A DNA stretch of 64,000 nt. Source: Pyrinomonadaceae bacterium (lineage in GTDB: Bacteria > Acidobacteriota > Blastocatellia > Pyrinomonadales > Pyrinomonadaceae). The notes under the pieces were generated by a model, which worked only from the letters and a program-made list of their open reading frames with translations, was not told the origin of the DNA and did not search any database. The DNA is taken from contig JAIBCA010000143.1 in the NCBI GenBank assembly GCA_019694345.1, positions 1 to 64,000 of the forward strand. The letters run 5' to 3'. Positions 16,535 to 18,092 of this stretch are shown piece after piece. Both the position numbers and the translations under genes were made by a program. Position 1 is the stretch's first letter. Every line of letters starts with the position of its first letter.

Positions 16535-17800
16535 ATGGCTAACTTTCGCAAAATTCTGATCGCCGGACTGGCCGCTCTCATCGCGGTACAGACGGCCTTT
16601 GCCGAACCACCGGGTCCGGTCGCGCAGAAGAAATTGCGATGGAATACCGACACGATACGCATCGCGATTTCTCGGTCGATTCTATCCGCTGCAAACATTA
16701 GCGGTGCAAATGCTATCGATGCCGTCAAGCGTGGTGTACGGGCATGGGAGGCGTCGGCCGGGGTCGAGTTCGAGATCGTGCTGACCGACCGTGAAAGCTC
16801 GAGCGGTCCCGGGGCCGCCGGCGACGGCATCAGCCTCATCACCATCGCGCCGAACGCTGAGAATATGCTCATTTTTGGGCGTGATGACCTCGACGCCGCT
16901 GCCAAGACGCGGATCTTCTATAATCGTAAAGGCTCGATCACCGAGGCCGACATCGTACTCAATCCGACACAACAGTTCTCGACCGACGGTGCGTACGGGG
17001 CTTTTGACCTCGAATCAACGATCACGCATGAGGTCGGCCATTTGCTCGGGCTTCGGCATTCGAACGTCGTCGGTTCGGTCATGTATCCGACGACGGCGAG
17101 GAACGGTTCGCTAGGAATCCCCGGTGTTCTCGCCCGTGAGATCGCCGAAGTGGACATGGCGGGCCTTCGTGAACTGTATTCGCAGTCGGGCGGCGATGCC
17201 TGTTGCGGCGTTGTGAGCGGGAAGTTGACGTCGAACCCGAGAGGCGTAAGGGCGACGGATATCTGGGCGGAGGATGCGTTTGGTCGCGTCGTTGCCGAGA
17301 CAACTGCAGCAACGGATGGCTCTTTCAGATTTGGCGGGATAAATGCTAACTCGGTGTCTGTGTATGCCCGACCATGGGCAAGAGTTGCCGAATATTCGGT
17401 CTTCCCGGTGGGTGACGTCACCTTTTCGGAGGGCGGATCGGCGATCAATCGGCGTGTGCAGCGTCAAGTGCGCGGATTTTCGATCGCGGCGATCGGGCTG
17501 AACGGCCTGCTTAGCGACGCCGCTTTGCGCATGCTGCCGGGACAGACATACAACGTGATATTGGGCGGCGAGCGATTATCGGCCGACGGAATGAACATAT
17601 TTACGACGTCACCGTATTTCGCGATTGACCGCTCGAGCATTCGCGATCTCGATTACGGTGAAGGTGTAACTGCGATCACCTTTGTCATTACGGTCGATGA
17701 CGCGGCACCAGCCGGTAATTATTCGATCTATGCCGCTGACCGTTCAGGTGCGACCGACGCACTCCCGGGGGCGATCATCGTTCCGGCATCGCAGAGGTGA
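16535..17800 (+). CDS. Secreted matrixin-like zinc metalloprotease
   Basis: A 421-residue exported protease. The signal peptide covers residues 1-23 (AVQTAFA). The catalytic domain (about 30-215) carries HEVGHLLGLRH, giving zinc ligands H165, H169 and H175 with E166 as catalytic base, and a Met-turn at M183 (SVMYP), the metzincin/matrixin hallmark. After the catalytic domain come beta-rich modules: a carboxypeptidase-regulatory-like segment (about 222-300) and a C-terminal domain. There is no cysteine-switch prodomain. The likely role is extracellular protein degradation; the substrate is unknown. Confidence 0.92.
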   Translation: MANFRKILIAGLAALIAVQTAFAEPPGPVAQKKLRWNTDTIRIAISRSILSAANISGANAIDAVKRGVRAWEASAGVEFEIVLTDRESSSGPGAAGDGISLITIAPNAENMLIFGRDDLDAAAKTRIFYNRKGSITEADIVLNPTQQFSTDGAYGAFDLESTITHEVGHLLGLRHSNVVGSVMYPTTARNGSLGIPGVLAREIAEVDMAGLRELYSQSGGDACCGVVSGKLTSNPRGVRATDIWAEDAFGRVVAETTAATDGSFRFGGINANSVSVYARPWARVAEYSVFPVGDVTFSEGGSAINRRVQRQVRGFSIAAIGLNGLLSDAALRMLPGQTYNVILGGERLSADGMNIFTTSPYFAIDRSSIRDLDYGEGVTAITFVITVDDAAPAGNYSIYAADRSGATDALPGAIIVPASQR

Positions 17801-17845: not shown

Positions 17846-17873
17846 TTGCAATTTGATATTGATTGTGCATAAT
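17846..17873 (+). promoter_or_regulatory. Sigma-70 promoter for the candidate small RNA
   Basis: TTGCAA (17846-17851), 16-nt spacer, CATAAT (17868-17873). Initiation is expected near 17880, exactly where a three-hairpin element begins. Confidence 0.5.
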
Positions 17874-17879
17874 CAGAAA

Positions 17880-17969
17880 TGTTCACCCCCCAAAAGGTGG
17901 ACATGTTACACGCTGTGAGGACGTGTAACGCAGGGGCGACGGTGTGGGAGACGTCGCCCTTTTCTTTTT
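17880..17969 (+). ncRNA. Candidate small RNA of about 90 nt (three hairpins and terminator)
   Basis: Three stem-loops follow a promoter-like sequence within 90 nt. Hairpin 1: GTTCACC/GGTGGAC (17881-17887 with 17896-17902), loop CCCCAAAA. Hairpin 2: GTTACACG/CGTGTAAC (17905-17912 with 17922-17929). Hairpin 3: GGGCGACG/CGTCGCCC (17934-17941 with 17952-17959), followed by a T-rich run, an excellent intrinsic terminator. No open frame with a ribosome site fits. The C-rich loop of hairpin 1 could pair with Shine-Dalgarno sequences. I recognise no known riboswitch or sRNA family. It occupies the 304-nt gap between the matrixin and transporter genes. Confidence 0.55.
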
Positions 17970-18058: not shown

Positions 18059-18092
18059 GCACCGCAGGCTGGTTAGGTTATGCGGTGCTTTT
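18059..18092 (+). terminator. Terminator-like hairpin in the transporter leader
   Basis: GCACCGCA (18059-18066) pairs with TGCGGTGC (18081-18088) around a 14-nt loop and is followed by TTTT, ending 12 nt before the ATG at 18105. As it lies downstream of the likely promoter, it could attenuate transcription or mask the ribosome site. Confidence 0.45.

Follow-up and report, generated by a model that had tools for sequence, protein, structure and literature searches.

The short interval between a gene for a matrixin-like metalloprotease and a gene for a transporter in a Pyrinomonadaceae bacterium raises the question of whether this DNA carries the regulatory ends of its two neighbors or specifies an RNA of its own and, if so, what such an RNA would do. 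The original prediction placed a promoter, three stem-loops, and a terminator here, and all of these parts are present in the window, by which we mean the whole 64,000-nucleotide stretch analyzed (Table 1). The putative promoter matches 9 of 12 consensus positions and carries TGTG directly before the −10 element. The three hairpins are perfect and are exactly those into which the predicted transcript folds (−40.3 kcal/mol, against an average of −27.75 for dinucleotide shuffles, all 200 of which were less stable), and the larger region around it gives a fold z of −3.9. Scans of the window sequence alone for promoters and terminators return counts at chance level, so the case for an sRNA rests on comparison, i.e., on a promoter found at 53 of 60 homologous loci and on covariation in 22 of 25 base pairs.

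Table 1. Features of the sRNA locus in the window, with the related type B loci.
Feature	Position	Strand	Remarks
Metalloprotease gene, matrixin-like	16535-17800	+	Pfam Peptidase_M10, E 1.8e-11
Sigma70-type promoter (putative)	17846-17873	+	−35 TTGCAA 17846-17851; spacer 16 nt; −10 CATAAT 17868-17873
sRNA, predicted, ~90 nt	17880-17969	+	Inferred from promoter position and terminator; predicted 5′ end 17880 ± 1, 3′ end within the U-tract
Hairpin H1, 8 bp	17880-17903	+	Stem TGTTCACC/GGTGGACA; C-rich loop CCCCAAAA at 17888-17895
Hairpin H2	17905-17929	+	Loop region CUGUGAGGA
Hairpin H3	17934-17959	+	Stem GGGCGACG/CGTCGCCC; loop GUGUGGGAGA at 17942-17951
U-tract	17960-17969	+	TTTTCTTTTT; with H3 forms the intrinsic terminator, 17934-17969
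Transporter gene, 668 aa	18105-20111	+	Start 135 nt past the U-tract
Type B RNA loci	L063-L082, L125-L129		Convergent with a FAD-flavoprotein-like gene

The original prediction had staked itself beforehand on covariation in related genomes, and covariation is abundant. Within the genus, 10 of the 25 base pairs change on both sides and yet stay paired, and among 42 divergent copies from the family, in an alignment made without reference to structure, 22 of 25 pairs show such double-sided changes (6 of 8 in H1, 9 of 9 in H2, and 7 of 8 in H3); neither result was reached in any of 500 shuffles. In the 42-copy set, 98.1% of cells are paired versus 37 to 46% when the partners are slid. The shuffle control ignores the relatedness of the copies, but given how many pair types occur and how few cells pair when partners are slid, an artefact of relatedness is unlikely. 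G–U cells outnumber A–C cells by 86 to 3 in the homologous copies, which indicates that the plus strand is the one present as RNA. A small protein read from the frame beginning ATG TTC ACC was considered and rejected; this frame is open in the window copy and broken or shifted in most relatives. The transcribed strand conserves a secondary structure, and no reading frame is conserved with it.

The surroundings of the RNA bear on two readings that would make it part of a neighboring gene. NATAAT lies 3 to 12 nt 5′ of H1 in 55 of the 60 homologous loci and TTG is appropriately spaced for a −35 element in 53, with nearly random spacer columns between them. That the RNA is the 3′ UTR and terminator of the protease gene is favored by a protease relative immediately upstream at each of the 30 genus loci; but the conserved promoter separates the two, the upstream gene is not the protease in several other genera (g20 and g23 among them, as judged from neighboring ORFs), and sibling RNAs, described below, lie elsewhere in the genomes. 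This reading is largely refuted by such decoupling, and we hold it to be extremely improbable. A cis-acting leader or attenuator of the transporter, with H3 as the regulated terminator, is scarcely more credible and is likewise largely refuted by decoupling: the transporter does follow 90 to 450 nt downstream in most loci, several distant genera included, but in 9 of 30 genus loci the sRNA occurs without an adjoining transporter (a relative of which is then found elsewhere in the genome), and in other families of the class the transporter occurs without the sRNA. In addition, siblings adjoin other genes, promoter-like sequences fall between the sRNA and the transporter, joined in four loci by a c-di-AMP riboswitch, so that the fixed position upstream of one regulated gene in one transcript that characterizes a cis leader is not found here. 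Because the RNA is kept without transporter or protease, and because the riboswitch intervenes in those four loci, we conclude that it is neither leader nor 3′ UTR but has its own promoter and intrinsic terminator apart from its neighbors. Its separateness from the transporter, as first proposed, is thereby borne out, and the same holds for its description as a stand-alone sRNA, for which covariation, a conserved promoter of its own, the G–U strand signal, the lack of a conserved ORF, and persistence without neighbors all speak. The window almost certainly encodes a real, independent sRNA.

The c-di-AMP riboswitch (ydaO/yuaA; RF00379) adjoins the same transporter in some relatives and is a separate element lying between the sRNA and that gene; the four examples (L005:1700-1836, L012:1259-1387, L017:1290-1426, and L113:2914-3049) are directly 5′ of orthologues of the window transporter. 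The transporter itself returned no sequence match in Pfam, NCBIfam, or PDB, and it may be a c-di-AMP-controlled KimA-like importer. A perfect 8-bp hairpin followed by UUUU (GCACCGCA..TGCGGTGCTTTTG) is found at 18059-18092, ~15 nt 5′ of the transporter ATG, and many relatives harbor a comparable hairpin and U-run (often GACCGC..GCGGUCUUUU) in the equivalent place; it is possibly an attenuator or an insulating terminator.

To place this RNA in a wider context, we turn to its distribution. Of 60 genomes searched with blastn, 35 contain the element, and these all belong to the same genus. A covariance model based on 30 copies matches 40 of 41 genomes of the host genus; in the family Pyrinomonadaceae it matches 92 of 119 genomes, which represent 17 of 29 genera. 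Among 297 genomes sampled from the phylum, the same model has no match outside Pyrinomonadaceae. When 84,980 named genomes were scanned separately with a DNA pattern, 63 contigs matched, and the covariance model accepts 42 of these; the titles of nearly all 42 refer to Acidobacteria/Acidobacteriota, Pyrinomonadaceae, Blastocatellia, or related MAGs, and they include “Acidobacteria bacterium OLB17” and an Aridibacter famidurans MAG. Pattern-scan matches in Streptomyces and others are regarded as chance, as none fits the model, and a plasmid collection yielded no match to the element. Rfam searches at the gathering score of the window and 26 other loci identified no sRNA family at this RNA; with the E-value relaxed to 10, the best match to the sRNA region itself was DapZ (E 0.23), far under its cut-off. 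No sRNA family described from Pyrinomonadaceae emerged from a search of the open-access literature.

The most constant parts of the RNA are its loops: UCCCC (or CCCCAAAA) in H1, GUGAGGA in H2, and GUGGGAG in H3. The C-rich loop of the original prediction reappears across the family, with CCCC kept in two forms, UCCCC in most relatives and CCCCAAAA in the window copy, in divergent copies as well as in siblings with unrelated stems. The GUGAGGA loop of H2 is kept in most genera; in some members of the genus H2 consists of a short stem capped by UUCG or a similar loop, which indicates that GUGAGGA is dispensable. Judged from the sequences, constant loops on drifting stems form the pattern expected of contact sites.

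Comparison adds to the original prediction a set of siblings, several per genome; their stems are unrelated, their first loop is C-rich (UCCCC, CCCCAAAA, or UCCAC), and their terminator hairpin carries the constant loop GUGUGGGAGA. In 40 genomes of the genus there are 101 sites with the terminator-loop 12-mer GTGTGGGAGACG versus six with a reversed control, and other copies of the 12-mer are likewise preceded by a hairpin with a C-rich loop and sit in a long terminator hairpin, with stems unlike those of the window sRNA. A C-rich apical loop (CCC or UCCA in the preceding 55 nt) is present at 19 of 32 motif sites located on a stem, where 3.5 are expected from dinucleotide shuffles, and at 1 of 11 sites without a stem, where 0.9 is expected; these sites were unselected, and some are orthologous, which makes the effective sample smaller. 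In some siblings the minimum-energy fold does not form a C-rich loop, in part because tandem copies misfold. Strong promoters accompany many siblings, e.g., TTGACA-16-TATAAT in L250 and L252. The genome of the window harbors at least two further loci, one on contig C10 (L137) with a CCCCAAAA loop and a tandem pair on contig C120 (L138). At this last locus (G000:C120:44964-45029), as at L242 and L243, the tandem hairpins are 54 nt apart and carry the loop GTGTGGGAGA; an open frame that spans them (...VWET...) might be annotated wrongly as a protein repeat.

A weaker covariance-model match defines a paralogue, type B, of ~70 nt, which consists of an H1 with a 5-nt C-rich loop, an A-rich linker, and the same terminator loop. 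Its 3′ end lies 1 to 4 nt from the stop codon of the convergent FAD-flavoprotein-like gene in most cases, and its terminator stem contains 20 G–U and no A–C cells, which indicates that type B, too, is read on the plus strand. Type B may act as a bidirectional terminator for both convergent genes. Type-B-like hairpin units also occur two or three in tandem, with a spacing of 74 to 85 nt, in L232, L226, and L080.

How might such an RNA act? On sequence grounds, we consider it fairly probable that positions 17846-17969 are the gene of a trans-acting sRNA with a C-rich loop that base-pairs to G-rich ribosome-binding sites, the pairing of H1 being inferred from the constant loops on drifting stems and from analogy to LhrC and α-r14. 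In Listeria, the UCCC motifs of the LhrC sRNAs bind GGGAG in the ribosome site of lapB by base pairing (PMC4132741), and the α-r14/NfeR1 (Cuckoo-type) sRNAs of Rhizobiales, represented by the SmelA075 and SmelA099 models, present CCUCCUCCC in three hairpins, the stems of which diverge (PMC10746234, PMC3927594). The window sRNA resembles the latter in having three hairpins, a constant C-rich, anti-Shine–Dalgarno-like loop motif, divergent stems, and a 3′ terminator, but its C-rich motif is shorter and confined to H1, whereas α-r14 RNAs repeat CCUCCUCCC in each of three loops; its terminator loop is the constant, G-rich GUGUGGGAGA, and its hosts belong to a different phylum. Membership in the α-r14/Cuckoo family was therefore rejected, as CCUCCUCCC is not found in all three hairpins and Rfam gives no match at the gathering score. 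With LhrC1-5 and UCCC-motif sRNAs such as RsaE (PMC4132741) it shares a multicopy stem-loop organization and UCCC in an apical loop, here as UCCCC in H1 of most relatives and as CCCCAAAA in the window copy, but the LhrC terminator loop is also C-rich whereas that of the window sRNA is G-rich, and Rfam searches at the gathering score of the window and its relatives revealed no homology to LhrC or RsaE. By architecture, the window sRNA would be a trans-encoded sRNA that, at most, works in the manner of α-r14 and LhrC. What is new is that a single C-rich loop occurs together with a constant G-rich loop that sits on the terminator.

In this proposal, the four to five exposed C residues of H1 would make the first contact with G-rich translation-initiation regions; in most relatives they are flanked by the anti-Shine–Dalgarno-like UCACCUCCCC, and pairing would block translation. 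Siblings would act redundantly or additively, and the constant G-rich terminator loop would serve to contact a further partner, either a protein or a C-rich RNA. We regard mRNA pairing by the C-rich loop, argued by analogy, as roughly evenly balanced. Hfq would be a probable helper of such pairing: an hfq gene is present, the terminator is U-tailed, and Hfq is encoded in 110 of 119 genomes of the family, which means that the chaperone is available; actual dependence of the sRNA on Hfq is a tentative proposal, somewhat less probable than the pairing itself.

A seed-pairing test at the scale of the window, covering the start regions of its 43 ORFs, found no target. There, the consensus seed scores −5.28 versus −4.41 ± 0.63 for shuffled seeds (~1.4 standard deviations better), and the loop of this genome scores −3.96, which is not better than the shuffled value. 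The H1 loop exposes only 5 to 8 nt. Shine–Dalgarno-like motifs are not common upstream of the predicted starts (17 of 43 ORFs versus 21 of 43 decoy codons), although a few genes do have strong GGAGG or GGGAGA sites.

The constancy of both loops also invites explanations in which the mRNA is not the partner. The C-rich H1 and G-rich terminator loops might kiss (CUCCC with GGGAG), within one RNA or between siblings, so that the seed is masked or siblings are titrated; UCCC is indeed complementary to GGGA, and both loops are kept together on unrelated stems. The H1 loop nevertheless varies, as ACCCC, CCCCAAAA, and the GCCCU and UCCAC of siblings, all with an unchanged terminator loop and no compensating change, and at minimum only a CCC–GGG contact is generally possible, which makes kissing unlikely. 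No likelier is an RNA that serves as sponge or scaffold for some RNA-binding protein recognizing GUGUGGGAGA (and the H2 loop GUGAGGA). An invariant terminator loop on a stem free to change and GGA-type purine motifs in the loops of both H2 and H3 fit this explanation, and GGA-containing loops in short hairpins recall CsrB/RsmZ-type sponges of CsrA; but the H2 motif is lost in part of the genus, the conserved C-rich loop, which in contrast to CsrB/RsmZ is the key loop here, is left unexplained, and the obvious candidate protein is missing. CsrA is absent from the host's own genome (95% complete) and from nearly all family members, being encoded in 12 of 118 genomes versus 92 of 119 for the sRNA, and we rejected it as a general partner and the RNA as a CsrA sponge.

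Beyond the pairing of the C-rich loop with mRNA that we favor, a broader and more speculative proposal, which we think rather doubtful though less so than kissing or protein binding, is that these RNAs form a multicopy sRNA class defined by a loop pair (C-rich plus the Shine–Dalgarno-like, G-rich GUGUGGGAGA on the terminator) rather than by stem homology, with members that would bind mRNA and a second partner and so make up a network of mutually complementary sRNAs. If true, the second partner would be a sibling sRNA, a C-rich RNA, or a new RNA-binding protein. Strong covariation, near-universal presence in the genus, multiple copies, and the lack of an Rfam match make this RNA a candidate new Rfam family. 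Its C-rich, anti-Shine–Dalgarno-like loop, known from Firmicutes and Rhizobiales, recurs here in a third phylum on unrelated stems, and the sRNA offers a first opening for the study of post-transcriptional regulation in this group of soil bacteria.
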